DNA of 42,724 nucleotides from a virus, in the IMG/VR virus record IMGVR_UViG_3300047157_000059, positions 1 through 42,724 of that record; one strand, 5' to 3'. Shown in pieces: positions 1 to 29,434 of this stretch. The position numbers and the translations under genes are program-made. How positions within the stretch are numbered: the first letter of the stretch is position 1; each line of letters starts with the position of its first letter. Below the pieces are notes generated by a model, which saw nothing but the letters and a program-made list of their open reading frames with translations, did no database searches and had not been told where the DNA came from.

Positions 1-260
1 ACTAATTGACTCATGCAACACACTTATGTTTCACTCAATGACATATATATTACACACTTGGTTTCATTGCATGAAACCTTAATGATTACTAACAAACCTC
101 AGTAGGTCACACATCTCTAGGCACATTGTTGTCGTAGAAGATACAGTAATCAATTACTTTTGGAATTCACTGCGTGAATTCTTGATGATACTGTTCGTAT
201 TACACTGCTGTACGTTCAGGCAAACTAATAAGCAGTTTACTTAATATAGGAGTCATCTCA
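1..260. other. AT-rich leader with hairpins, no gene
   Basis: No convincing gene is seen. The stretch contains two perfect inverted repeats: GTTTCA/TGAAAC at 61-77, and GAATTCAC-TGC-GTGAATTC at 163-181, about 80 bases ahead of the SSB start. The second shares its CACTGCGTG core with a hairpin at 10093-10107, which precedes the other ssDNA-binding protein gene. A regulatory or promoter role is plausible but unproven. Confidence 0.5.
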
Positions 261-776
261 ATGATAAATATTAATGAAATCCTTTTAGTAGGACAAACGG
301 GTAAAGATAGCAAACTTACTGAATATACACCTAAAGGTAAACCTGCTTTCAAAGCCTTGCGTTTTAGTGTCGCAACCAACAACGTTTGGTATGACGCTCA
401 AGGGCAAAAGCATGAGAATGCTGACTGGACTAATGTGGTTCAGAACTTCAATCAAGATAGAAACGGTAACTATCCACCTGCATGCGAAATGCTGTGGAAT
501 GCGTTAACACGTGGTGCAAGAGTCTTGGTTCAAGGTCGTCTAACTCAACGACAGTACAAACAAGACGGCATAGATATGAACTTCACTGAGGTTCAAACAA
601 ATGCTATTGGTGGTAAGATTGTATTGCTTGATAAAAATGACCAACCAATGGAAATGAATAGCTCCAATGTTGCGCCTACTTCTGGTACTGAAATACCACG
701 CACAAATAGTCAACCACAATATCGTGAACAGCAACCTGTTGTTGATGTTAGCGACATGGAAGTCATTCCACATTAA
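261..776 (+). CDS. ssb: Bacterial-type single-stranded DNA-binding protein (OB fold)
   Basis: This 171-residue protein should coat single-stranded DNA during phage replication and recombination. The order of conserved elements matches bacterial SSB: an N-terminal strand ending in LLVGQTGKDSKL, then F-x-V-A-T, a W-x-D...G-x2-x-E-x2-D-W block, a helix with ARVLVQGRL, and a C-terminal TEV strand. The OB fold covers about residues 1-125, and a polar linker rich in Q, N and P follows. The tail ends in DMEVIPH rather than the usual acidic DDIPF, so the terminal Phe that docks partner proteins is missing. GGAG lies 8-10 bases before ATG. It stands alone between a hairpin-rich leader and a terminator, so it appears to be its own transcription unit. 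A second, unrelated SSB type is encoded at 10209. Confidence 0.85.
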   Translation: MININEILLVGQTGKDSKLTEYTPKGKPAFKALRFSVATNNVWYDAQGQKHENADWTNVVQNFNQDRNGNYPPACEMLWNALTRGARVLVQGRLTQRQYKQDGIDMNFTEVQTNAIGGKIVLLDKNDQPMEMNSSNVAPTSGTEIPRTNSQPQYREQQPVVDVSDMEVIPH

Positions 777-1191: not shown

Positions 1192-1223
1192 GGTGCTGAG
1201 CATCACTGCTAAACTGCTCACCT
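1192..1223 (+). repeat. TGAGCA/TGCTCA stem-loop, copy 2
   Basis: AGGTG-ct-GAGCA pairs with TGCTCACCT, giving nine base pairs with a two-base bulge. The 3' arm reads TAAACTGCTCACC, closely matching copies 3 and 4. Confidence 0.5.
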
Positions 1224-1258: not shown

Positions 1259-1288
1259 TGAGCATGAAGTCTGCTAATAAACTGCTCA
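1259..1288 (+). repeat. TGAGCA/TGCTCA stem-loop, copy 3
   Basis: TGAGCA (1259-1264) pairs with TGCTCA (1283-1288). It lies 27 bases before the start of the 1315 gene, as copy 4 (10748-10771) lies just before the 10789 gene. This placement fits an RNA processing or translation-control site. Confidence 0.5.
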
Positions 1289-6817: not shown

Positions 6818-9262
6818 TTGCAAACAAACTTGCTCAATCAGCTTGCTGATATATTAGAATACAAAATAACTTCAAGAAATCATAACAACACACACGCTGC
6901 AATAATATTTCGAGATGCTCAATGCGTGTACAACGATTACAGAACTGTAAAAATATTAAACATGACGTTTAATTATCTTATTCAACAATTCAAAAAAGAC
7001 GATGGATCTATAAAATTAACTAACACAAGTACGTCCATTGGTGGTTTTTGCGTAAATGTGTTAGACCTCTCAGAATTCGATTACAGCAAACAAACTTGTA
7101 TCATGCTAGGGGACTTCATCTTAGACATTTTAATCGCTGAAAAGTACCTTGTGCTTGCTCGTGAAGCATATTTTAGAGTAGAAGACGTGTATTTAAGCAA
7201 TATAAAAAGAAAATTCAACTATAATCCATATAAACTAGAAATGGGTGTTAAGTTTTTTCAAGTGTCAATTAATCAACAAGAAAGAACTGGTATATCACGC
7301 TACAAATATAAAAAATGGATCAACGGTTATCGTAAAACAAACGGTGTCAAAGAAAAATTAGTCAAATCCAATGTTAATATTGACAACAGCTATAACAATA
7401 AAGCATTTTATAAGTCAATAGAAAAACTAGAAAATGTACGATGGAAAATTAATTCACAAGTTGCTGCTGTAAGTTTACAACTTTATCCAAAACTAACTAA
7501 TACTGAGATAGAACTAATCAATAGTGAAGGTATGGTAGTAATGTTTGACACTATAGATATAAAACGTGAACATATTAACAAACATTTAAAAGGTATGCTC
7601 TTATATAGAGATCAAGATTTGTTTCAACCAGAGCTAGGTAATTCAAGTGCTGTACCTGTATTAGAAAAAGAAATTGAGAAATTAAATATACGAATAAGTA
7701 AACTAAAAAACAAAATCAAAATTCAAGAAACAGAAAATAAATTAGCTCTTATTAAAAACAAATATAACATTGAAAATAGACAGTGGACAGACAAACAATA
7801 CTGCCTTCGCATCCAGTCACAAGCCTCTAGAAACAGGGCGATTTTAGAAACAATAAATGGAAACGATACTTCACCCGGGTGGTTAGGTTATAAGTTTTAT
7901 CAATCTATGTATTTAGATTACCGTGGTAGAATTTACAATCGAGATCCATACTTTAGTTATCAATCAAACGATTTAGCAAGAGGTCATTTTTTATTTGCTG
8001 AGGAAAAAGAGGTCGACCAAAAAGGCGCTGAATACACATTTATACACGCAGCAACATCATTTAATAAAACCTACAAAATAAACGAGATACCTTTGCAGGA
8101 ATGGCTAACGTTAGATTATAAAAAATCTCTTGAAAATGATGGGTTAGTAGACATCTCAGTAGATAAAATGAGTGTGTTAGACAAACACAATTGGACGATA
8201 GAACATATTGATGAAATATTAAACGTAGCTGAAGACCCTATTAGTACACAAAACTATTGGCTTTCTGCTGAAAAACCTTGGGTATTCTTATCATTGTGTT
8301 TTGAAATTGGCGGAATAATCGGCAGCGCATTAAGTGGTGAACCATATTATTCGTCAATGCCAATCTCAATCGACGGAGTTAACAACGGTACGCAACATTT
8401 AGCAGCAATGTCTTTAGATGAAAAAGCTGGTGAGTTAGTAGGACTCATGCCAATGAAAATGCCTAAAGATTTTTACTTAGTCATGGGTAAAAAGATATTA
8501 GAACTCAACAAAAACACAGACATTGGTAACAAAATGCAACACATACCAATGAAATTAATACGTAAAGGCATCAGTAAACGTGGCTCCATGACACGTGCAT
8601 ATGATGCAGGTGCAAGAAAAATTGGTGAAATTATTTATCAAGATTGTTATGATGCTGGAATAACTTCGACGTTTAATATAACTAAATCAGATTCAAAAAC
8701 TTTAGGTAAAGATTTAGTAAAAGCATATGATTCTATATGTCATGGTCCTGTAGAAATTAAAAAATATTTACAAGAACTAGTGCTTCATAAAATAAACAAC
8801 ATGAACATGAAAGACATATCATGGAATACACCAAGCGGTTTCCCAGTACTCACTCAAAAATGGGTAGCACGCAAAAAAGTTTATAAAGGGTGTATAGGTA
8901 AACACAGAATAAGTCATGTCTACTTAGATGTAACTGATAAACCTGCACTTGCAGAACATCTGTCTGCTATTGGTGCTAACTGGGTTCATTCATATGATGC
9001 AAGTCACATGTCTTTGGTTATAAACAAACTAGATTTACCGAGCTTTGGAGCTATACACGATAGCTTTAGTGTTCACGGATGCGACGTAGAAGAATTGATT
9101 CACACAACTAAAAGTCAGTTTATAAAAATGTATGCTAAAGATATATTTGCAAACATGCGTGAAGAAATAATATGGAACGATCAAACCTTTGATAAAGATG
9201 TACCTGCACTCGGCAATTTAATACTAGAAGATATATACGGTTCAGACTTTTTCTTTTGTTAG
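6818..9262 (+). CDS. Single-subunit T7-like DNA-dependent RNA polymerase
   Basis: This 814-residue enzyme transcribes phage middle and late genes from phage promoters. All family signatures are present: YLDYRGRIY (residues about 365-373), motif A SIDGVNNGTQH with catalytic Asp519, and motif B K-G-I-S-K587-R-x6-Y595 (equivalents of T7 Lys631 and Tyr639). Motif C is IHDSF with catalytic Asp748. The C-terminus LEDIYGSDFFFC matches the hydrophobic foot of T7 polymerase (DFAFA). The residue after the motif B Tyr is Asp, where T7 has Gly. It starts at TTG 6818 with AAAGAGG in front; the next in-frame ATG would remove about 49 residues. It is slightly shorter than T7 polymerase (883). A second polymerase-like protein is encoded at 18417-22586. 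Confidence 0.97.
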   Translation: MQTNLLNQLADILEYKITSRNHNNTHAAIIFRDAQCVYNDYRTVKILNMTFNYLIQQFKKDDGSIKLTNTSTSIGGFCVNVLDLSEFDYSKQTCIMLGDFILDILIAEKYLVLAREAYFRVEDVYLSNIKRKFNYNPYKLEMGVKFFQVSINQQERTGISRYKYKKWINGYRKTNGVKEKLVKSNVNIDNSYNNKAFYKSIEKLENVRWKINSQVAAVSLQLYPKLTNTEIELINSEGMVVMFDTIDIKREHINKHLKGMLLYRDQDLFQPELGNSSAVPVLEKEIEKLNIRISKLKNKIKIQETENKLALIKNKYNIENRQWTDKQYCLRIQSQASRNRAILETINGNDTSPGWLGYKFYQSMYLDYRGRIYNRDPYFSYQSNDLARGHFLFAEEKEVDQKGAEYTFIHAATSFNKTYKINEIPLQEWLTLDYKKSLENDGLVDISVDKMSVLDKHNWTIEHIDEILNVAEDPISTQNYWLSAEKPWVFLSLCFEIGGIIGSALSGEPYYSSMPISIDGVNNGTQHLAAMSLDEKAGELVGLMPMKMPKDFYLVMGKKILELNKNTDIGNKMQHIPMKLIRKGISKRGSMTRAYDAGARKIGEIIYQDCYDAGITSTFNITKSDSKTLGKDLVKAYDSICHGPVEIKKYLQELVLHKINNMNMKDISWNTPSGFPVLTQKWVARKKVYKGCIGKHRISHVYLDVTDKPALAEHLSAIGANWVHSYDASHMSLVINKLDLPSFGAIHDSFSVHGCDVEELIHTTKSQFIKMYAKDIFANMREEIIWNDQTFDKDVPALGNLILEDIYGSDFFFC

Positions 9263-9983: not shown

Positions 9984-10208
9984 CAAAATTCATGTTGCAT
10001 CATGTGGTAGTTATGCAACACAAAAAAACGCCATACACTCTGAAACTACCACACCTCCTCAGAATGTATGGCTCTTTTTTTTACTAGAAAGTAAGCACTG
10101 CGTGCTTCCTGTAGGATTTAAAGAAAACAAAAGACTGATATACAAAGTCTTTTCACGGGGATAAGCGATAGGCTTATCATTTTATAACAAGTAATAAGGA
10201 GAATCTAA
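9984..10208 (+). promoter_or_regulatory. Hairpin-rich intergenic leader before gp2.5-like SSB
   Basis: The stretch has no gene but contains five consecutive inverted repeats: TGTTGCAT/ATGCAACA (9993-10020), the terminator stem (10030-10072), AAGCAC-TGC-GTGCTT (10093-10107), AAAGACT/AGTCTTT (10130-10152) and GATAAGC/GCTTATC (10160-10178). The third shares CACTGCGTG with the hairpin at 163-181 upstream of ssb. Promoter, RNA-processing or SSB autoregulation sites are all possible. Confidence 0.5.
10030..10082 (+). terminator. Rho-independent terminator
   Basis: GCCATACAcTCTGA pairs with TCAGAATGTATGGC around a loop of about 17 bases, followed by a run of eight T. It closes the polymerase/nuclease/DUF3310 unit. 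Confidence 0.75.
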
Positions 10209-10730: not shown

Positions 10731-10747
10731 ATAATCCTTAATGGTCC

Positions 10748-10771
10748 TGAGCAAGACTCTAAAACTGCTCA
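10748..10771 (+). repeat. TGAGCA/TGCTCA stem-loop, copy 4
   Basis: TGAGCA (10748-10753) pairs with TGCTCA (10766-10771), with a CTAAAACTGCTCAC arm like that of copies 2 and 3 more than 9 kb away. It lies between the gp2.5-like gene and the next SD, a position suited to RNA processing or coupling. Confidence 0.55.
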
Positions 10772-18370: not shown

Positions 18371-18419
18371 AAAAACCCCCAACAGATTCCATAAGGTTTC
18401 TGTTGGGGGTTTTTTTTTA
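18369..18419. terminator. Bidirectional intrinsic terminator at the convergent junction
   Basis: A perfect 11-bp stem, CCCCCAACAGA (18376-18386) with TCTGTTGGGGG (18399-18409), has an A-run on its left and a T-run of nine on its right, so it can stop transcription on both strands. It lies exactly between the plus-strand replication block and the minus-strand structural block. Confidence 0.93.
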
Positions 18420-21400
18420 CATCATTATTTTTTTATTTGGTATCGTATGCTTAGCTATTCTAGCAGGATCAGCCCTATTAATTAAATCATGTACAGCTCG
18501 TGTTGACCAAAAGAATTGTAAGATATGACTAGAGTTTTCTAAATCTCTTCTAGCTTTGTCAAAATTTCTAAGGTCTTGTAAAGCTTGTGCACTAGCCTCA
18601 GTTGCTAGCCAATCATAAGCATATTCATCTAACTCTGGATGCCAACTACCTTGCCTTAAATCTGGATGTTGTGCAGCTCTAATAGCCTTACCTTCTGCAT
18701 TTAACAAACGTACAAACTTATGTTTGTCTTTTACTTTGCTTGGTATATTGCTACGGTCTCCAAGATTGTTGCTGTAATTATCAATTATCTTTTCACCACG
18801 ACCATTAAGCTCATAAGTTAAAGCATCTTCAACAAAACCAGCATGACCTACACCTTTTGTTACTCCAGTTTTATAACGATTACCTCTCATCATTTGACCA
18901 AAGACATCATTTAGTTCTGTTGCATGGGTCTCAGCTTCTTTAGGCGTAACAAGCAAGCCATCAAATATGTGTAATGCGTTGTTTGCATATGCTGTTACAG
19001 TTGAATCAAACAACACACCTCTTTCTTTAAGCTTTGCTTTGTGTAAATTAACCAAACTTCTCATCATATTAATATTATCATTAGCATGGTTGAGCATTAC
19101 AGTTATTTGTGTTGCTGCTTTTAAAGAATCACCTTGTAGAAAAAATGGTTGCCACTTTGATATCATCAAAGAAGATTGTGAACGACTTTTAGTATCAGAC
19201 ATCTTAAGTTTTTGTCCAGCTTTTAATTTTTCTTTTGCTTTATCTAAATTTATCTGAGCATTTACATCACCCGGATAGTATCTAAAACTTTTTGTTCTGC
19301 CTTTACCTCTATCTATTTCATATACTTTCCCGCCAAGATTTATAAAGTAACCAGCTTGCGTTGGTATCTTCATTGCAAAACCTTGTCTAGCAGCATCAGT
19401 TGCAATAGTACTTAAAGTTGTAGCAAACTTTTTAATTTCAGAGAACTGTTGATTAACCGCTTCTGCTGCAATCTTTGATAAAGGATCGATAAAATTAACA
19501 TTTAAATCTATACCGTTTCTTTGAAACTGTTGTCTTAAACTTGGGTTTTGTACCAACATGTCTTCAACAAACATACGTACAGCTTCACCTATTCGTGCTT
19601 CACCTGCACCATAACCAAATATCATTACAGGTTTTTTAATAAATTTCCTTCCAAGAGAGTTTCCTGTGTCATCTAGTATGTCTAAAGCATCAAGAAACAA
19701 TTTACTTCCTTGCCCTTTGCCGTCACTACCAGCACCATGTGCACGCCTCATCATAACTTGTGCAGCATTACTTGCCATTTTAGATAACATACCCGGCAAG
19801 CCAACATTTACTACATCAATATCTGGGTATTGGCTTTTATCTTTTGCTGTGCCTTTCAATCGTCTAATTTGATTTAACATTTCTTGATTAACACTATTGT
19901 ATGCATCTAAATAATTAACTAATTCTAATGAATCGCCATGTTCATCTTCAAGATTAATCAAATCATCTATTTGTTTATTGCGTGTCAACTCTTCAATCAT
20001 GTCATAGTTTCTAGCCCAATGCTCATATGTTGCAGGATCAAATATATTTGCACCCCAAGCTGTTTTTCTATCACCAGCTTGTACTGCTGAATGAGCCATG
20101 CCATTTGTTAAGCCATCAATTTCTGTATAAAAACCAGTTTTATATACGCCTGTTCCATTTGGATTAACTAATGCATTATGAAAAGCAATACCTTCTTCTA
20201 TTGCTGCAACAGATGCCCAGCCTTCTTCATTGGAAGCTATTGTTAATTTTTGTTTTAAGTCTGCATTAATCCATGTCAGTACTTGGCTGTCAAATAAATC
20301 TGCAGCAGTAAGAACATCCATCTTATCGTAACCAAAACGTTTCATGATTCCAGCTTTCAAAGTAATAACATCTTGTGCTTTGTTCAAATAATATGTAGCT
20401 TCTTCAGATGCATTGATTACAGCTCTTGCAGCTTTACTTGATTGATAGTTACCAACAGTTTGGTCGACATTTAATCGTGTGCCCAAGCCGTAGAAATAAT
20501 CATACATAAATGTTTTACCAACATTTTCTTCAATAAAAGTTTTAGTTTCAAACAAAAGACTGTCTTTAATTCTATCACTAGCATCAAATAAAACAGCAGC
20601 TTCATCAGCAATATCTGTTATTGATCCGTCTTCTCTTACAAATCTTCCTTCTTCATTTCTTTGTAAGACAACTCCAGGTCTAAACCCATATGCACCACGA
20701 TTATTATTGCTGTCACCTTTGATGTTTTGAAAAGCAGCGCCATCTAATATAGCCATAACAGTAGTTTGATATGCTGCTCTTGAGTTATCATCTAATTCAT
20801 TGTTACGTATAGTATTTAAAAAAGATTGCAAGTCTTCAAAAATCTCATTGTAAATCTTCTGCATTTTAGAATTAATTGTAACAGGAGTATTCTCAGCCAC
20901 TGTTTTCATTTCAGCCATTTCTTTTGTTTCACCTATAGAAACAATCTCACCTTCTGTATTAGGTGATTTCATGTTAGGCGTTGCTCCAACCTCTGTTTTC
21001 TTTCCTAATTTTCTAAGAACTATATCGCCAACTTTGTTTGGTTTCTTTGCATACCTAACTTTTCTTTTTGAATCAGGTAACAACATATTAAACATTGGTT
21101 GCAATCTATCAGCAACATCTAAACCTTTTGCAGTTAAAGTAAAACCTACTTTACTTCTTGGCTCGCCATTACTGTTGTTTAACTCTGTGTTATCAGAAGT
21201 AACATCAGGTGTGAACGTTCTTTCAAACAATTTGTTTTCATAAAGAGGGGTGCTTCTATCGTTTGGATCGCCTTCTTGTTGTGTAAATGCATCTGATACA
21301 AGCACCTTTGCTATTGCACCAACCATAGCCATTTGCTCTTGCGTAGCGTTTGGAAAGAACATAGCTGCCAAAGCTTTTCTGCCTATACTAATATCATCAT

Positions 21401-22586
21401 TAACATTTAACATCAGTTTAGATTCATTAGCTGCAGTTGCTTCAGCTGTAGTCATCTTTGCCATGTTAGCATCTTCAGTATTAGAACGCTCAGTTTCATA
21501 TCTAACCATCTTAGTCTTAGCTTCGTCCATAACTGTCAGAAGAAATATGTCTGACATAAATCTACCAAAGTTTTGTTCTTGTGCTGCAACAGCTCCATAA
21601 GAAGTACTTAAAGCATAAAGAGTTTGTTGCAAATCAGCACGACTAAAATCAGGATTATTTTCTATAATCTTTTTAACAAACATTTCTTGTTGCTTAGGAC
21701 CAAGTCTAGTAAATGTTTGTTGTAATGAACGTGTAACTTTATCTGACATGCCAAGCAAACCATCTGTAAAAAATTTAAAGTCAGCTTTAGAATCCTTTCC
21801 CGGACTAAGAGAAAACAAAGCAGAACGTATAGGGCTTTCAGTATTGTCTTGGCTAGTAGCTTTGTCCCACATTTTTTCAGCAGCAACTTTGTCAGTACCA
21901 TAGTCAACTAATTTCTGTACTATCTTTTCTCTATCGCCTCTTGCTTTAATAGCTACCTCGTTGTCAGGCATAGACGTAAAGGTTGGGTCTTTCTCACGAT
22001 TTAAATCAAAGAGTCTTGTTACCTGTCTGAATGCAGTAGGAACTGGACCACTAGCTTTAACATCAGCACCTGTTCTTTCATAAGCATTGTATCTATTGCC
22101 AACTAAAGTTTTAGTTTTTGCACCAAGATATCTTCCAAGCTCATCAAATAACAATGGGTTGTTTTCTATTTCAAAAGTATCTACACCTTTTAATCTTGCA
22201 AACTGTTCTATCAAAGCATCTTCAATAGCAGGGTCAAGATTATTAGCATCATACTCAGACTCACCAAACAACTGCATGCGATCTTCACTAAAATCTTTTT
22301 GCAAGTTACCAATGTTACTAGCAACATTTCTTGGTACAGCTGGCTCACCTTGCACATCAGGCTGATACAATGAGTCAGTGTCTTCTACACTTGGTGTAAA
22401 TTGTTCATCAACAGCATCACTATATAACTGTGGATCTTTAAGTCTTTCATAAGTTTCATTAAGAACATCTTCTGTTGTGTTGTCAGTTGCAATTAAATCA
22501 ATAAGACTAGAGATTTCAGCTCCAGCTGGTTTAAGTTTATCATCAAACTGTGGACCTTTAGTTGCACCACTATACTTACTTGCCAT
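18417..22586 (-). CDS. Giant internal virion protein with single-subunit RNA polymerase motifs (virion RNA polymerase)
   Basis: A 1389-residue protein at the end of the structural operon. The C-terminal half carries the T7/N4 polymerase signatures in order: FYGLGTR with Arg704 followed by an N-x2-S-x-KAA segment (the T/DxxGR motif), then motif A TEIDGLTNGMAH with Asp824. Motif B is GRKFIKKPVMIFGYG with Arg980, Lys984 and Tyr992, the exact 4- and 8-residue spacing of T7 R627/K631/Y639 and N4 R666/K670/Y678. Motif C is LHIFDGLLVTP with Asp1209. The N-terminal 650 residues are unassigned and probably structural. Position next to ejection proteins suggests packaging in the virion and early transcription on entry. 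N4's virion polymerase is about 3500 residues, so this is a compact version. An inactive relic is possible but all key residues are intact. Confidence 0.82.
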   Translation of the reverse strand: MASKYSGATKGPQFDDKLKPAGAEISSLIDLIATDNTTEDVLNETYERLKDPQLYSDAVDEQFTPSVEDTDSLYQPDVQGEPAVPRNVASNIGNLQKDFSEDRMQLFGESEYDANNLDPAIEDALIEQFARLKGVDTFEIENNPLLFDELGRYLGAKTKTLVGNRYNAYERTGADVKASGPVPTAFRQVTRLFDLNREKDPTFTSMPDNEVAIKARGDREKIVQKLVDYGTDKVAAEKMWDKATSQDNTESPIRSALFSLSPGKDSKADFKFFTDGLLGMSDKVTRSLQQTFTRLGPKQQEMFVKKIIENNPDFSRADLQQTLYALSTSYGAVAAQEQNFGRFMSDIFLLTVMDEAKTKMVRYETERSNTEDANMAKMTTAEATAANESKLMLNVNDDISIGRKALAAMFFPNATQEQMAMVGAIAKVLVSDAFTQQEGDPNDRSTPLYENKLFERTFTPDVTSDNTELNNSNGEPRSKVGFTLTAKGLDVADRLQPMFNMLLPDSKRKVRYAKKPNKVGDIVLRKLGKKTEVGATPNMKSPNTEGEIVSIGETKEMAEMKTVAENTPVTINSKMQKIYNEIFEDLQSFLNTIRNNELDDNSRAAYQTTVMAILDGAAFQNIKGDSNNNRGAYGFRPGVVLQRNEEGRFVREDGSITDIADEAAVLFDASDRIKDSLLFETKTFIEENVGKTFMYDYFYGLGTRLNVDQTVGNYQSSKAARAVINASEEATYYLNKAQDVITLKAGIMKRFGYDKMDVLTAADLFDSQVLTWINADLKQKLTIASNEEGWASVAAIEEGIAFHNALVNPNGTGVYKTGFYTEIDGLTNGMAHSAVQAGDRKTAWGANIFDPATYEHWARNYDMIEELTRNKQIDDLINLEDEHGDSLELVNYLDAYNSVNQEMLNQIRRLKGTAKDKSQYPDIDVVNVGLPGMLSKMASNAAQVMMRRAHGAGSDGKGQGSKLFLDALDILDDTGNSLGRKFIKKPVMIFGYGAGEARIGEAVRMFVEDMLVQNPSLRQQFQRNGIDLNVNFIDPLSKIAAEAVNQQFSEIKKFATTLSTIATDAARQGFAMKIPTQAGYFINLGGKVYEIDRGKGRTKSFRYYPGDVNAQINLDKAKEKLKAGQKLKMSDTKSRSQSSLMISKWQPFFLQGDSLKAATQITVMLNHANDNINMMRSLVNLHKAKLKERGVLFDSTVTAYANNALHIFDGLLVTPKEAETHATELNDVFGQMMRGNRYKTGVTKGVGHAGFVEDALTYELNGRGEKIIDNYSNNLGDRSNIPSKVKDKHKFVRLLNAEGKAIRAAQHPDLRQGSWHPELDEYAYDWLATEASAQALQDLRNFDKARRDLENSSHILQFFWSTRAVHDLINRADPARIAKHTIPNKKIMM

Positions 22587-22597
22587 TTATAACTCCT

Positions 22598-25500
22598 TTA
22601 TAAAGGGTAACTAAAACGTGGCGTTGAACTTTGCAATGCATCACCTAATGTTATACCCTTATCGTTTACACCAAGATTGTATTCCTTGAAACTACTAAGC
22701 TTTCCTAAGAAAGGTATTTCTTTAGTCAAGTAAAAGTTTCTTCTTGACTTGTCTCCCTTAAGTCCGTTTAAAATAATCTTGGTTAGCTGTTCTCCATGTG
22801 CCCATGTAGGACCAAGGAGGTCTGTACCACCATGAACACCTCTTCTAATAAGATTGTCCATTCTACTTTCATTCCATTTTTTATCCATACTATACAACGG
22901 ACTGACCGCTGAAAGTATTTTTTCTGGTGTACCAACAAGACCAGAAGATGTAACACCTCTTTGAATATATCCTTTAGGAGTTATCCATGCTGGTGCTCCA
23001 CCATATCGCCATTCGTCTTTTAACATTTGATTTAAAAAACCTAATGCTATCATTGTTGTTGCTATTGCAACTGCATTATATCTTGCTGAAGGGTCTGCTC
23101 TTTTAATTCTTCTCCAAATTTTAGGAAGAATAGAAGCTGTAAACACAGACATGAAACCATTGTATTGAGTAAAAACTCTATACGCTGGATTAGAATACCA
23201 TACAGGTCTGTTCATTGCTGTTGGATGTGCAATAGCATTATCAACCCAAGTCATTCTAGCAATGTCCATTGTGTTCATAAACTCTGGGTCTCTTGCAATC
23301 ATCTCTTCATACAAAGCTGTAGGTGAAGCTCCTGCACCAAGTCTACCTTTAGCCCAACCAACTAATACTTTATAGTCAGCAGCAGTTCGATCAGGGTCTA
23401 TGTTTAATTCTCTCATTCTTTCAAATGCATCTACATACAATCCACTACCACGACCTGCACTTCCTTCTGGAAACATTGCAAGAATTTCTAAGTCACCAAA
23501 GATTGCATCATTGGCTAGAGAAAGACGAGCTACCCTTGTAGCATCTGTATAAATTTTTAAAAGATTAACTGTAAAGAATGCTTTCATAATTGCTTCTTTA
23601 ATCTTAGATGATTTATATACAGCTTCATCAATACCTACTTGACCAATTGCACCGTGAGCTCCAGTATCATAACCATACCTATAAAAATCTACAAGGTTTC
23701 TTGTGTACTCTTCTTGTGTAACACCTGACTTAGGATTAATATATGACCAGTTACGTGAAACATCCATTCTCATTTTGTAAGACATCTCTCTAACACCTTG
23801 CTCTATTAAAGGCATTATCTTTTTATCTTTAGTTGCACCTAACAAAACGATTGCTGCTTCTGGTGCTGAAGCTAAAGCAGATAAATCCAAATGACCAAAG
23901 GTGTTGAAGAATGTAACATGTCCTATCATCCTTTCCATTCTTTTACTTTTGAGTCTTCTGTAATCACCACGACTTGCTGCTACAACATCAGTAAAAGTTG
24001 AAGCAATACGTGGGTCCCAGTCTTCACCCATACCATCTTTCATAATCTTGTAAAGCTTCATTAGGTTTTCACCGTCTTTACCAATGTATCTTCTGTCAAC
24101 AGCGTAGTTAACTTGTTCTTGCGTATTTTCTTTTATTCTTTGAAAGGGATTGTTTTCTAAAAACTTAGAATCATTTCCGAAAACATCTTCAAGTATTCCT
24201 TTAGCAGTCTTCAAAGACCTTGATGGAAAGTTCATGAATCCGAGCTCAGCAACTTGACTAATGTCATAACCTGCTGGACCATTTTCTAACATCTCATAAA
24301 AATCATTGGCTTGATCTTGTGTCCAACCATTCTTTTTAAGGGTATCAATAAACTCTTCTTTATTAGCAATAACAACATCTTTTTTTAATCGTCTGCTGTC
24401 TTGAAACCAAAAAGGTTTTTTACCGGGACCTACTCCTCTTAATAAACCATTAACAGTTGAATATAATCTATCGGTTATACCATTATTAGTTGCATCTTGA
24501 CCACCTATTTCTAATCTCAAAGATTCTAACTCACCTACAAAAGGTTGGAATCTTGCGTCTGTTTGTTTTGGTACAATGCCTTGTCGTCTTTGCTCAAGAT
24601 AATCTACAAAAAATTTAGTTGCATCTTCTTTTGTTCTGCCTGTATACAAACTATCTGTAGCCTGTATACCAACACCTAAAATTTTGTATAATCTATTTTC
24701 AACCATATTAATCTCAGCCAATAGACCAGACATTATCAATCTTTTCTTTTCTCCTAAATCTAAAGATTGTTGACTTGAAAGCTTACCGCCACCTGTTAAA
24801 GATTGCACAATCATAAAAGCTTTTTTAGCTTCGTCAGAAATATTTGGGTTATTAAGAACTTTGTTCTCCCAATAAGCTGGATTTTTTTGTGTAAACTTTT
24901 TTGGAAATTCTTTTACAGCTGTGTAAAAAGATTTAAGACCACCCCTAAACTTTGCTTTTTCCATTTGAGAACCTAAAGCAATTTCTTCTTTCATCTCTTC
25001 AATAACAGGTATAGAATTTACATTTGGAGCTCCCGCACCAGAGTTATAATATTCAGGTGAACCATACTCAGGACTTTCTGGAGGTGGCTCATTCTTAACT
25101 GGCTTGCTATCTTCTTTATAACCAAGCACTTCATCCATGTTATCTTCTAGTGTGCCGGACATCCAGTTTGGATCAGTCTTTTGATTTGTTGCAAATGTTC
25201 TTTGCACACTTTTAAATCCTGCAACTTCATTTACAGCTGTTGTAGTTCCTCTAATTGTTCCACCAAGAAATATACCACCAGCTGCTGCGTTAGCCATAAT
25301 TCTTTGGTACTCATCCATATCAAAAGGTATTCTTATATCTTCATCAGTTCCATATCTACCACCCTGATATGAAATAGTTTCTTGTCCCATTTCAGTTATG
25401 CCTTCTAAAGTTGCACCAGTAAGCACACCTTTAGTTGTTGATTTTGCTAACAAAGTTTTACTCATTTGTAATGCAGCAATCATTTCTAAATCTTTAATAA

Positions 25501-26752
25501 CTTGTGCAGTTATTATTCCAGCCTCACTGTTAACAAGAGCTCTTGATTGTTCAATTGGTAAAGAATTTTTTTTAGAATGTGCTTGTGCAACTTGTTCTAA
25601 TGCATCTTTCTTCATCATTTGACCAGCTTTAAATATTCCTTTTAGTCCAACTTTATCTAACAACGCCATACCAATACCGCCACTAAATGCAATACCAGCA
25701 TTCTTTTGATCCATACCACCTTCCATGTTGCCGTATATTTCACCCATGTATACCCACGCAACAGGTGCTTGCCATCTTAAAGCTGCACCAAAAGCAAGAC
25801 CTAGTGCTCCAGTTAATGGCGCACTTGCTGTAGCAATAGAGCCAGCAACAGCTGAACCTACAATTCCTATAATGTAAGGTAAGGCAACACCAACTGAAGT
25901 TTGCGACCAGTCTGCTAAATCACTTATAGTTTTAACATGTGTAAAGTCATTATTTATTTTTGGCATGTCAGCTAATATAGCTGCAGATTCACGTGCTCTT
26001 TGTTCTCCCATTTCATACCAGTCTTTACTGCCAACTATATCTCCCATAGCAGCCAATGCATTGTTTGCACTTTCTTTTATAGTTTGCATTCCATAAGCCC
26101 AACCACCTCCAGTAAAAGCTTCATTGGCTTTATTCTCTAGAGTTCTATCGCCTCTTCTAAACTCTACATCGTGTCCAAAAAAAGGACTGTAAGATTGACC
26201 GTAAGCATCTGCATAATTAGACAGCTCTCTTTCATCTAAAGCTTTTGTTTTGAAACCAACATAAGTATCTTTCTTATATTGATTAATTTTTTCTCTGGCT
26301 TGTGCCCATATATCATCAGGCTGGTCGCCAGATACTTCGTCAACAAAAGCTCTTTGAAACGCACCCATGTCTGCAAGCTCTTGTTGTACTGGGTTTGTTG
26401 GTTGTGCAACACCTTCAAAGACAGCTTTGTTTTGAAAACTTCTACCGTTTTCATTTTCCATGCCACCTAAATCTCTATCATAATATCCTTTTTCTCCAGT
26501 ACGATAAAGATTGTCATACTCACTATCTGTCCACAACTCTTCATAAAGATTTTTGTAAAACTGCCCACCCCAATCAGCTGTTTTTAAACCTTCCTCTGTA
26601 AGATGTTGTATTTCAGGAGCGTTCATACCTTCAAAACGTACAGAACCTTTTTGATCTGCAACTGTATCAGCATCTATAGTACGAGTTGTAGGTAACATAT
26701 CAATTAAACTTGATAGCTGAGGTGTGATTCTTCTTGACATTCTAGTAGCCAT
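22598..26752 (-). CDS. Giant internal virion (ejection) protein with nuclease-like N-terminus
   Basis: A 1384-residue protein between other internal virion proteins, like T7 gp15/gp16 in position and size. Residues about 24-97 resemble the staphylococcal nuclease core: IDADTV (Asp27, Asp29, Thr30), VRFEGMNAPE (Arg39, Glu47) and YDRDLGG (Arg93, at the place of the catalytic Arg in YGR-x-L). Residues about 290-350 include a long Gly/Ala-rich hydrophobic block (YIIGIVGSAVAGSIATAS...), suited to membrane insertion during ejection. The remainder is mostly helical. It begins behind AGGAG and lies 11 bases from the 1389-residue gene. Whether the nuclease-like part is active is unknown. Confidence 0.7.
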   Translation of the reverse strand: MATRMSRRITPQLSSLIDMLPTTRTIDADTVADQKGSVRFEGMNAPEIQHLTEEGLKTADWGGQFYKNLYEELWTDSEYDNLYRTGEKGYYDRDLGGMENENGRSFQNKAVFEGVAQPTNPVQQELADMGAFQRAFVDEVSGDQPDDIWAQAREKINQYKKDTYVGFKTKALDERELSNYADAYGQSYSPFFGHDVEFRRGDRTLENKANEAFTGGGWAYGMQTIKESANNALAAMGDIVGSKDWYEMGEQRARESAAILADMPKINNDFTHVKTISDLADWSQTSVGVALPYIIGIVGSAVAGSIATASAPLTGALGLAFGAALRWQAPVAWVYMGEIYGNMEGGMDQKNAGIAFSGGIGMALLDKVGLKGIFKAGQMMKKDALEQVAQAHSKKNSLPIEQSRALVNSEAGIITAQVIKDLEMIAALQMSKTLLAKSTTKGVLTGATLEGITEMGQETISYQGGRYGTDEDIRIPFDMDEYQRIMANAAAGGIFLGGTIRGTTTAVNEVAGFKSVQRTFATNQKTDPNWMSGTLEDNMDEVLGYKEDSKPVKNEPPPESPEYGSPEYYNSGAGAPNVNSIPVIEEMKEEIALGSQMEKAKFRGGLKSFYTAVKEFPKKFTQKNPAYWENKVLNNPNISDEAKKAFMIVQSLTGGGKLSSQQSLDLGEKKRLIMSGLLAEINMVENRLYKILGVGIQATDSLYTGRTKEDATKFFVDYLEQRRQGIVPKQTDARFQPFVGELESLRLEIGGQDATNNGITDRLYSTVNGLLRGVGPGKKPFWFQDSRRLKKDVVIANKEEFIDTLKKNGWTQDQANDFYEMLENGPAGYDISQVAELGFMNFPSRSLKTAKGILEDVFGNDSKFLENNPFQRIKENTQEQVNYAVDRRYIGKDGENLMKLYKIMKDGMGEDWDPRIASTFTDVVAASRGDYRRLKSKRMERMIGHVTFFNTFGHLDLSALASAPEAAIVLLGATKDKKIMPLIEQGVREMSYKMRMDVSRNWSYINPKSGVTQEEYTRNLVDFYRYGYDTGAHGAIGQVGIDEAVYKSSKIKEAIMKAFFTVNLLKIYTDATRVARLSLANDAIFGDLEILAMFPEGSAGRGSGLYVDAFERMRELNIDPDRTAADYKVLVGWAKGRLGAGASPTALYEEMIARDPEFMNTMDIARMTWVDNAIAHPTAMNRPVWYSNPAYRVFTQYNGFMSVFTASILPKIWRRIKRADPSARYNAVAIATTMIALGFLNQMLKDEWRYGGAPAWITPKGYIQRGVTSSGLVGTPEKILSAVSPLYSMDKKWNESRMDNLIRRGVHGGTDLLGPTWAHGEQLTKIILNGLKGDKSRRNFYLTKEIPFLGKLSSFKEYNLGVNDKGITLGDALQSSTPRFSYPL

Positions 26753-26766
26753 AAGACTCCTGTAAA

Positions 26767-28833
26767 TTATGTTTTAATTTTTGAATTATCTTCAAGATAT
26801 TTTTTAAGCACTGTGTTTCTATCTTTAATACTACTCTTTTGTAAAACAGTATCAAAGTTAATACCTAAAGTATCATTTGTTTTTCCTGCAAGTTCAGTAA
26901 GAACAAAACGAGTGAATGGTCCAATACCTTTATTGTATGCCATCTTTTCGTTTCTACGAAAATTTTGTGGCTGGTATTTTCTATAATCTTCATAATCTTT
27001 TTGTAGTAAAAGCATTGTAGTCTCTTCACCTATTGCATTACCTTTTGCAGTTTTTAGTTTTGCAATTTCTTGAACTAAAGTACCAAGTCTTAAAGTCATC
27101 TTATGTCCAGTTCTAGTGCCATCAACTAAAGAAGCAGGGTCGACGTAATGCATTGGAGCTTGTTCTTCACCTTTAAGTTTTGTTAATGGAACATGATTAG
27201 GTTTACTAGTTGCTCCTCCAGCTAAGTAACTATGAGAAGGGCTAATTATATTAGGACTAATTTCCGTATACTTTTCAACCTCAAGCTTAGTAAACATTTC
27301 TTGTGCATATGCTTTAGCATCAGGTGCGCCTAAACTATTATAATATAAAGACTGATGAATGAAATTTTCTAATGCACCAGACATTGCATACATTTGTTGT
27401 GGTTCATTTAAATTTAATTTAAATCCATCAGGACTTGAGGCTTCTATTTCAGCCATAAAACCAGCCATTTGTTGCGTTACAGATTGTCCAACTAATCCAG
27501 AATTTTCATATGCGTCTGTATCTTTGGCACTTTCAATCATTTCTTGCAACACTTTTGCACCAAGATCTATATTATCTTTTAATCTTTTTGCTTCTGCAGC
27601 TTTCTTTTCTTTTGTAGTTTTAGCATCTTGTTCCATAGCTTTTAGTGCTACTGCTTCTTCAAAGTCTCTTTGAGATTTGGCAGAATCGTATGCAAAATCA
27701 CGTTGTTCTTTAGCCATTTGTTTAGCTAACTCTGCTTCAGCTTCTGCTTTTGTTTTAGCTTCTAAAGCATCTGCTGCATAATCATCTGCAACCACACCAA
27801 AACCTGTGTTCATAGCTGTAGTAAAGTCATCACCAAATAACATAGCCATCATTGCAATAGCCATAGCTTTTCTAAATTTTTGATCTACAGTAGGTGAGTC
27901 TTTAAGAGCTTGTAAATAATCTTCAGCTTCTTTTTCAGCCTCTGCATCTGTATGTTGGTCAGCCCAAGTTGCAAAATCATTTAGAACTTTAATGCTAGCA
28001 CCAGAAGGGTCTTGTTTTTTTATTTCTTTAAGTGCATCAACAATTACAGGTGCAACTAAATCGTCATCACTTCCATCTGCTTCGTCAATATTTTCAAAAA
28101 CTTTTGCATCTTCTTCTAAAATTGAATCATAATCACCACTATGAGGATCGGGTAAATAACTATAACTACCGCTCAATGCAGCCTCTTCATTTAATAAATC
28201 ATTGTATGCTGACTGAGCACTCCAAGCTATATAATCTTCTTTTGTTCCTTCTTGATATGGTGTTTGCACAGTAGAAACATTAAGGTCTTCTTCTAAATCA
28301 TTTGTTCCTGTGTTTTTTGCTTTACCAAGCCTGCTCTCTGGACCATCAGCCATAGACATATCAAACATACTTAAATCTGTGTACTGTGGTATTTGTTTTG
28401 TGCCTTCTAAATAATCATCGTAAGGTATATAACCATTATGTCGATTAGACCAAACCATTTTTTGTCCGCCCGGTGCAGTAATAATTTCTGAATACTCATC
28501 TACATCTTCGTCAATTTCTGGTTCAACAACCACAGGCTGTGCAATTGATGGTTGTGCAATTACTTCATAATTTTGTTGCTCATCCATCATATCGAATATT
28601 GATGCTGGTTGCGTAGTTACTACTTTAGTCTTACTACCATCTTCTAATATTTCTTCATCAGTATTTGTTAATGTTTCACCATCAAAAGTTTGTGACATTG
28701 TATACTTAGCTTTTTTTGCTTGTCTAGTAGGACTGCCTGTACCACCTTCGCTATAATTACCAAAATTAGTTGCTTGGTTTTGATATCTTTTTTCCGCCAT
28801 CCGTCTATCAAATATTTCTTTTGCTGTAGCCAT
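26767..28833 (-). CDS. Internal virion/structural protein with coiled coil
   Basis: A 688-residue protein from the ATG at 28833, chosen because AAGGAG lies just ahead; an upstream ATG at 28878 would add 15 residues without a good SD. The N-terminal 250 residues are acidic and low in complexity. The middle (about 350-450) is a long charged coiled coil (AKTKAEAEAELAKQMAKEQRDF...KKAAEAKRLKDN), and the C-terminus is mixed. Its place upstream of the two giant proteins suggests an inner-core or ejection protein. No enzymatic motif is seen. Confidence 0.65.
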   Translation of the reverse strand: MATAKEIFDRRMAEKRYQNQATNFGNYSEGGTGSPTRQAKKAKYTMSQTFDGETLTNTDEEILEDGSKTKVVTTQPASIFDMMDEQQNYEVIAQPSIAQPVVVEPEIDEDVDEYSEIITAPGGQKMVWSNRHNGYIPYDDYLEGTKQIPQYTDLSMFDMSMADGPESRLGKAKNTGTNDLEEDLNVSTVQTPYQEGTKEDYIAWSAQSAYNDLLNEEAALSGSYSYLPDPHSGDYDSILEEDAKVFENIDEADGSDDDLVAPVIVDALKEIKKQDPSGASIKVLNDFATWADQHTDAEAEKEAEDYLQALKDSPTVDQKFRKAMAIAMMAMLFGDDFTTAMNTGFGVVADDYAADALEAKTKAEAEAELAKQMAKEQRDFAYDSAKSQRDFEEAVALKAMEQDAKTTKEKKAAEAKRLKDNIDLGAKVLQEMIESAKDTDAYENSGLVGQSVTQQMAGFMAEIEASSPDGFKLNLNEPQQMYAMSGALENFIHQSLYYNSLGAPDAKAYAQEMFTKLEVEKYTEISPNIISPSHSYLAGGATSKPNHVPLTKLKGEEQAPMHYVDPASLVDGTRTGHKMTLRLGTLVQEIAKLKTAKGNAIGEETTMLLLQKDYEDYRKYQPQNFRRNEKMAYNKGIGPFTRFVLTELAGKTNDTLGINFDTVLQKSSIKDRNTVLKKYLEDNSKIKT

Positions 28834-28846
28834 TGCTATCTCCTTA

Positions 28847-29434
28847 TCAAATAAATCTAAGAAACTTAGAAAGTCCACCAGAATTATTTTTTACAGTAGG
28901 CTGTTCATCAAAGTATCTGCTTTTGTAATTTGGATAAAGAACTTGATTGTTTTTAGTGTCGTCTGCAAATCCACTAGTTTTTGTTTCAGTTCCTTCTAAA
29001 CTTTTGATTTCTTGCAAGTTATCAAAAAATTCTATTTCTAATGCACTGGGTTCACCAGCATAACTTCCTGATTCACGTGGGTTAAAAGCTGGAACATAAT
29101 CAGGATTTAGAGTAATTATTTCACCGTTCATGCCGGGAAGCTCTGTAGTAATTATTGGAGAGACACCAGGAGTTGGCTGTTTTCTATTAGCCTTTTCACT
29201 TTTGTGTTGCTTTAATAATTTTTTATTTCTTTGAACTAATTGTGCATGTCTTTCTTTTTTGCTAACTTTATCTGCATTCATTGCTTCATCTATCATTGAT
29301 CCTAAAGCAGAAGCCATCTTATCACCTAGACCTTTCTTTTTCTTTTCTGGTTTGATAGCTCCCGGAGCTCCAAGCGGAGACATCCTACCTCTGGCTTGCA
29401 AACTATTGTATAAGGGTGCATATGTATTTGCCAT
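28847..29434 (-). CDS. Hypothetical structural protein
   Basis: A 195-residue basic protein. A low-complexity Gly/Pro/Lys N-terminus (MSPLGAPGAIKPEKKKKGLG) precedes a Lys/Asn/Gln-rich middle and a polar C-terminus. No domain recognised. It shares start/stop overlap (TAATG) with its upstream neighbour and sits among internal virion genes, so a particle role is inferred only from context. Confidence 0.55.
   Translation of the reverse strand: MANTYAPLYNSLQARGRMSPLGAPGAIKPEKKKKGLGDKMASALGSMIDEAMNADKVSKKERHAQLVQRNKKLLKQHKSEKANRKQPTPGVSPIITTELPGMNGEIITLNPDYVPAFNPRESGSYAGEPSALEIEFFDNLQEIKSLEGTETKTSGFADDTKNNQVLYPNYKSRYFDEQPTVKNNSGGLSKFLRFI

Follow-up and report, generated by a model that had tools for sequence, protein, structure and literature searches.

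Gene layout and motif content

The window analysed here is a 42,724-base viral contig from IMG/VR (IMGVR_UViG_3300047157_000059), and its central feature is a minus-strand gene at 18417-22586 for a protein of 1389 amino acids (aa) which, as far as can be judged from its sequence, is a real single-subunit RNA polymerase (RNAP), whose nearest kin is the virion RNA polymerase (vRNAP) of phage N4 and not the polymerase of T7. The gene is a single open frame from its ATG, the plus strand of the same interval is rich in stops, and it is the final gene of a leftward virion block that faces a rightward replication block; its strand had been absent from an earlier, first-pass annotation of this DNA. 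The gene and its parts are as follows.

18417..22586, minus: compact single-subunit RNA polymerase of virion type, 1389 aa (frame, motifs, RNA_pol, PHROG 414, N4 vRNAP profile, fold search)
18417..20909, minus: polymerase core, residues about 560-1389 (alignment of 11 relatives, AlphaFold, Foldseek)
20910..22586, minus: N-terminal extension, residues 1-559, unmatched to the N- and C-terminal domains of N4 (hhalign, E=0.06)
20475..20477, minus: R704 of the T/DxxGR-type motif, equivalent to N4 R424 (invariant in 11 relatives)
20100..20117, minus: motif A, DGLTNG, with catalytic D824, equivalent to N4 D559 within EADGVTNG (sequence, alignment)
19608..19652, minus: motif B, GRKFIKKPVMIFGYG, with K984 and Y992-G, equivalent to N4 K670 and Y678 (sequence, alignment)
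18957..18971, minus: motif C, HIFDG, with catalytic D1209, equivalent to N4 D951 within KIFDG (sequence, alignment)

Motifs A, B and C and the T/DxxGR motif, with their catalytic Asp, Lys, Tyr, Asp and Arg, are all present, at the very residues where the first-pass annotation had placed a full RNA polymerase set: GTR ends at R704 and is followed by N713-x2-S-x-KAA, DGLTNG begins with D824, and GRKFIKKPVMIFGYG spans residues 979-993 (R980, K984, Y992). The N4 numbering quoted with them (R666, K670, Y678) is correct in the N4 record, where R424, D559 and D951 of the mini-vRNAP also fall at these motifs. In the 11-member family alignment the invariant positions are R704, Q709, N713, K718, D824-G825, T827, G829, K984-K985, M988, Y992-G993 and I1207-F1208-D1209, and so include all the residues that had been singled out with the exception of R980, which is conserved in the near clade only and is replaced by E in the relatives L082 and L105.

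Among the family profiles, Pfam RNA_pol matches the full-length protein with E=1.4e-4 and its C-terminal part with E=4.3e-5, above the curated cut-off, and also matches 7 of the 11 aligned members, while the RNA polymerase family PHROG 414 gives 1.3e-7; a phmmer and profile search of the PDB sequences with the protein returned no polymerase. No relatives were found by tblastn in the phage collection, by a single-sequence scan of IMG/VR or by a scan of genome contigs for the family, and those that are used here were reached by way of the early polymerase of the phage and then by way of the family alignment. They comprise a near clade of eight, 37-53% identical to the protein in the aligned C-terminal part, and a sister lineage of two, at 17% identity. 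Relative to one of them, G001, the polymerase is 45% identical, its 1384-aa neighbour 62% and the early polymerase 86%, and by this comparison of sequences it evolves faster than its neighbours. In another relative (L103:9584-13773, IMGVR_UViG_3300046167_000468) the polymerase gene is broken over three frames, which may reflect a frameshift, an assembly error or decay.

Kinship with the N4 virion polymerase

The N4-type references were gp50, of which the mini-vRNAP comprises residues 998-2103, and the structures 2PO4, 3C2P, 3C3L and 9PNQ. The mini-vRNAP shows the same signatures as the protein of the window (NMTRVGRM, NPQSAKLVR, YVEADGVTNG, LKRGIAKNPLTITIYGSG and LKIFDG), and those of N4 type that it shares are EADG-TNG, NPQ-K, KK/KNP...YG and IFDG. 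In hhalign comparisons, whose E values are pairwise since each was made with a single template, the clade profile matches nine Schitoviridae vRNAP segments with a probability of 98 and E=9.7e-14, thereby bearing out the likeness to N4 that had been proposed, against 2.3e-6 for the T7-like early polymerases of these phages and 0.33 or worse for reversed-profile decoys. A lack of any profile match to the polymerase family, which would have told against the proposal, was not encountered.

At the level of structure, the AlphaFold model (pLDDT 59.5, pTM 0.57) finds its best Foldseek match in 3c2p, the N4 mini-vRNAP (E=2.6e-6, probability 1.00; TM 0.25-0.40), the top matches being N4 mini-vRNAP and T7 polymerase and the matches listed including only single-subunit RNA polymerases. 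The model, weak as it is, thus has the right-hand polymerase fold.

The protein therefore shares with N4 gp50 and the other Schitoviridae vRNAPs a polymerase core with N4-type signatures, and with gp50 the position of last gene in a leftward virion operon that faces a rightward replication block; as in N4, a second, T7-like polymerase coexists with it, and DNA hairpins of the N4 loop class lie at the left end. It differs in having 1389 aa against the 3336-3760 aa of four full-length Schitoviridae vRNAPs translated here, that is, about 40% of their size. The second polymerase, which in N4 is the RNAPII pair, is here one chain, and the ejection partners are unrelated to gp51-gp54; with these two differences, and with no DNA-level match between the window and known phages, the phage falls outside the family Schitoviridae. 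With the T7 RNA polymerase family (Autographiviridae) the protein shares the fold and the catalytic residues, but it is nearer to the N4 vRNAP, is encoded in the virion block and carries an N-terminal extension of 560 residues.

The second polymerase and the CRP-7 group

6818..9262, plus: second, T7-like RNA polymerase, 814 aa, early block (RNA_pol 1.2e-59; CRP-7 RNAP 2e-68)

That the phage has two such polymerases, as the first-pass annotation had it, holds good, the product of 6818-9262 being a clear T7-like enzyme, and the pairing recurs: every fetched locus that has both genes (about 28 contigs, distinct by name) carries a gene of the 1389-aa type convergent with that of a T7-like polymerase. 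Roseobacter phage CRP-7 (MK613349) has the same arrangement, in which the T7-like RNAP gp30 is followed by gp33 (1235 aa, "hypothetical protein") and gp34, with ORF30 the only one named as an RNA polymerase in the description of that phage (PMC6918029). The likeness to CRP-7 and to marine contigs of its type extends to the slot of the gene, to the T7-like polymerase convergent with it and to the virion protein next to it, orthologous to gp34 (hhalign about 1e-81); the differences are that gp33 is about 22% identical to the 1389-aa protein and that the K and R of motif B are exchanged.

Across 19 slot proteins of the CRP-7 group, the Asp of motif A and a K/R...YG motif B are kept, with mostly HD or FD in motif C. 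A profile of the near relatives of gp33 alone gave no significant match to the protein of the window; the pooled slot proteins of the group match the window clade with 6.4e-6 and the early polymerases with 3.7e-5, and in a low-confidence model of a slot protein of this type (pTM 0.44) the first 15 Foldseek matches are all single-subunit RNAPs (E 0.02-0.18). It is very likely that gp33 (L002:17859-21566) is likewise a single-subunit RNA polymerase, the second one of CRP-7, in which the two basic residues of motif B have changed places (K-x3-R). The marine phage of the window is a distant sister lineage of the CRP-7-type podoviruses, with replication genes between its two polymerases.

Neighbouring virion genes

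22598..26752, minus: 1384-aa virion (probable ejection) protein beside the polymerase (PHROG 6958, virion structural protein)
26767..28878, minus: 703-aa probable ejection protein (position and size; no family match)
28847..29434, minus: 195-aa probable ejection protein (position and size)

The polymerase gene had been placed at the end of the ejection-protein series, and it is indeed the last gene there, directly behind one for a member of a virion-protein family. The relatives of this 1384-aa neighbour are CRP-7 gp34 and, via the ortholog L082:12731-16969, the "phage particle protein" known from Pseudomonas phage tf. In three phage groups an ortholog stands next to the slot gene (hhalign 1e-73 to 1e-94); no solved structure matched the 1384-aa protein. 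Neither it nor the 703-aa protein matched gp51-gp54 of N4. T7 gp14, gp15 and gp16 have 196, 747 and 1318 aa, and the sizes, by themselves, suggest a similar series for the proteins of 195, 703 and 1384 aa.

Since the head genes and a DNA polymerase gene are missing from the window, the contig is probably incomplete, at least at its right end, and the DNA polymerase gene of the phage may be located in the missing portion. The window encodes a helicase, a primase, an exonuclease, RusA, endonuclease VII and a ribonucleotide reductase, with no recognisable DNA polymerase.

Candidate hairpin promoters

The N4 vRNAP requires a hairpin of the template strand with a 3-nt loop, 5'G...3'A, and a C:G closing pair (PMC4496689). 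A scan for such elements, tried also on N4, yielded three candidates in the window.

60..78, plus: candidate hairpin promoter 1, stem 8, loop TGC (template GCA)
163..181, plus: candidate hairpin promoter 2, stem 8, loop TGC, C:G closing pair
10093..10107, plus: candidate hairpin promoter 3, stem 6, loop TGC (most relatives have a hairpin here)

All three are intergenic and, for rightward transcription, their template strand shows the loop GCA; two of them have the C:G closing pair. Over the clade, with stems of at least 6, loops of the form TNC on the plus strand occur in 10 of 24 intergenic hairpins against 2 of 56 coding ones (Fisher p=5e-5), and within a genome the loop does not vary, being TGC in the three of the window and TAC in four of the relative G008; these four show GTA on the template strand, and two of them are followed by the same GTAGAGAATACA. 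Applied to the first 20 kb of N4, the same scan returns three intergenic hairpins of this kind and no more (at 90, 557 and 4546), which we take to be the promoters P1-P3. In a further relative (L081 3180-5460, IMGVR_UViG_3300020373_000009, reverse complement) additional hairpins with 4-nt loops, some of them followed by GTAGRGAT, stand beside those with TAC loops.

The first gene of the early block encodes a single-strand DNA-binding protein (SSB), and since the N4 vRNAP depends on the SSB of its host (PMC4496689), a role of this protein with the 1389-aa polymerase is possible by analogy.

261..776, plus: SSB, first early-block gene (Pfam SSB 2.5e-12)

A proposed course of early transcription and its alternatives

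The reading we consider probable is that the 1389-aa protein is a catalytically competent homologue of the N4 vRNAP which is packaged and injected, and which opens early transcription at hairpins. Synthesized late in infection, the polymerase would enter the virion along with the ejection proteins and be injected together with the DNA; it would most likely start at the left-end template-strand hairpins with G-N-A loops, and would transcribe the early genes, including that of the T7-like polymerase (6818-9262), which would then take over transcription. With these two polymerases the phage may be able to turn on its first genes independently of the host transcription machinery; the earlier proposal of a phage freed from host RNA polymerase claims too much, since N4 begins in the same two steps and yet relies on the host enzyme for its late genes (PMC12633501). 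What the computation establishes is the homology, the conservation of the catalytic residues, the synteny, the co-occurrence with the second polymerase and the presence of hairpins of N4 type; that the protein is packaged, ejected and active, that it uses the hairpins, and the sequence of events are inferred.

Several points weigh against this course of events: (i) the AlphaFold model is weak, with a TM to N4 of at most 0.32; (ii) hhalign detected neither the N- and C-terminal domains of N4 in the 1389-aa protein nor the partners gp51-gp54 among the ejection candidates of the window, so that the packaging route would differ from that of N4, and it is the position of the gene in the virion operon that suggests packaging; (iii) hairpin 1 closes with a T:A pair, unlike the N4 rule, and in some relatives the hairpin loops are tetraloops or do not fit; (iv) the hairpin scan was partly post hoc; and (v) the left end of the contig may not be the end of the genome.

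It could be supposed instead that the enzyme is active but unpackaged, a second polymerase that is produced at a late stage of infection, for instance to read the late genes. Vibrio phage Peru-2 lends some substance to this, as the gene of its second T7-like RNAP stands between the modules for metabolism and structure and the account of its virion proteomics does not list this RNAP among the proteins detected (PMC13320782); here, by contrast, the gene ends a leftward virion operon behind a virion-protein gene, like N4 gp50, and in profile comparison it is the injected N4 enzyme, rather than T7, that comes closest to the protein, which leaves unpackaged activity unlikely. Far less probable is an inactive, polymerase-derived structural ejection protein, for which its faster evolution than its neighbours (45% versus 62% and 86%, in G001) and the altered motif B residues of the CRP-7 group could be adduced; the catalytic Asp pair, the Lys and the Tyr-Gly are nevertheless invariant across relatives at 17% identity, and a loss of activity would have released exactly these positions. 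That the protein might be the DNA polymerase of the phage, given that motifs A, B and C also occur in family A DNA polymerases and that no other DNA polymerase was found in the window, can hardly be entertained, and this identity was rejected: its profile gives E=0.76 against the family A DNA polymerases of related phages, its motifs are of RNA polymerase type (DG-TNG, IFD, GR), and both CRP-7 and L082 carry a DNA polymerase in addition to the slot protein.

With regard to the hairpins, it is possible, though less likely than not, that they are terminators or RNA-stabilizing stems and not vRNAP promoters. Such stems are common in phage mRNA, other loops are present in some relatives, and the hairpin at 10093 comes after a true terminator; on the other side, the hairpins have no U-run after them, enrichment of their loop class is confined to intergenic DNA and to a single orientation, a given genome keeps to one loop but different genomes have different ones, and the scan recovers the three N4 hairpins at the expected places.

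Relation to known systems

The giant vRNAP has been described as unique to the Schitoviridae (PMC12633501). Virion RNA polymerases have also been proposed outside this family, in vB_PunP_Y3 (Poorviridae; PMC11654794) and in StenR_269, where the protein, of 2270 aa, was proposed from its size, its composition and low-confidence models (PMC10747016). Peru-2 is likewise a podophage with two single-subunit RNAPs, the second of which, T7-like, is encoded before the structural module and is unnamed among the virion proteins (PMC13320782); StenR_269 and Peru-2 are set apart here by their descriptions. In view of these earlier proposals and of the two polymerases of Peru-2, the claim to novelty is limited to the present form and group: the catalytic core belongs to a familiar type, and the new features are the small size, the lack of the N4 flanks, ejection partners unrelated to those of N4, a second polymerase in a single chain and an unrecognized group of marine podoviruses.

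More broadly, we put forward tentatively, as something a little short of an even chance, that a widespread group of marine podoviruses injects a naturally compact N4-type polymerase with an unrelated ejection set, that this enzyme would start at hairpin promoters specific to each genome and hand over to a single-chain T7-like polymerase, making early and middle transcription independent of the host, and that the N4 giant is an enlarged version. If true, the N4 enzyme would have been enlarged from a smaller ancestral or parallel form, and an N4-type polymerase at 40% of the size, in another phage group, would show which parts of the N4 enzyme can be spared in packaging, in ejection and in the reading of promoters. 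CRP-7, an isolate whose host, FZCC0042, is in culture and whose gp33 is still "hypothetical", becomes a direct test, and hairpin promoters with different loops form a set in which the joint change of such polymerases and their promoters could be studied.

Other elements of the window

1211..1220, plus: AAACTGCTCA box, candidate site of the T7-like polymerase
1279..1288, plus: AAACTGCTCA box
10762..10771, plus: AAACTGCTCA box before the helicase gene, conserved in relatives

From its distribution, AAACTGCTCA may be the site of the T7-like polymerase: the window has three copies and the relative G023 four, all of them pointing in the early direction, and most relatives have one copy ahead of the helicase gene. 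A repeat, GTSCTGAGYATSAC, mostly followed by AAACTGCTCAYTTAA and with co-varying arms, is found at 917-931, 1193-1220, 1257-1288 and 10744-10771 of the window, and in relatives it lies upstream of the helicase gene, with several copies in the early region. No late promoters were found, a search of the intergenic DNA of the window for 20-mer motifs gave nothing above shuffles, and sigma-70-like sites are no commoner than in shuffles.

The region of about 965-1005 resembles the 3' half of a tRNA (GGGTTCGAATCCC), ARAGORN finding no complete tRNA. After the early polymerase cluster, at 9994-10082 on the plus strand, there is an element without an Rfam match in which a conserved hairpin, GTTGCA/TGCAAC, bears the loop GTGGTAG, and an intrinsic terminator (GCCATACACTCTGA/TCAGAATGTATGGC, followed by T8) carries in its own loop CTACCAC, with which all seven bases of GTGGTAG pair; over 11 aligned sequences this loop-loop pairing is invariant while seven stem pairs change on both sides, a pattern which points to a probable kissing-loop terminator or attenuator.

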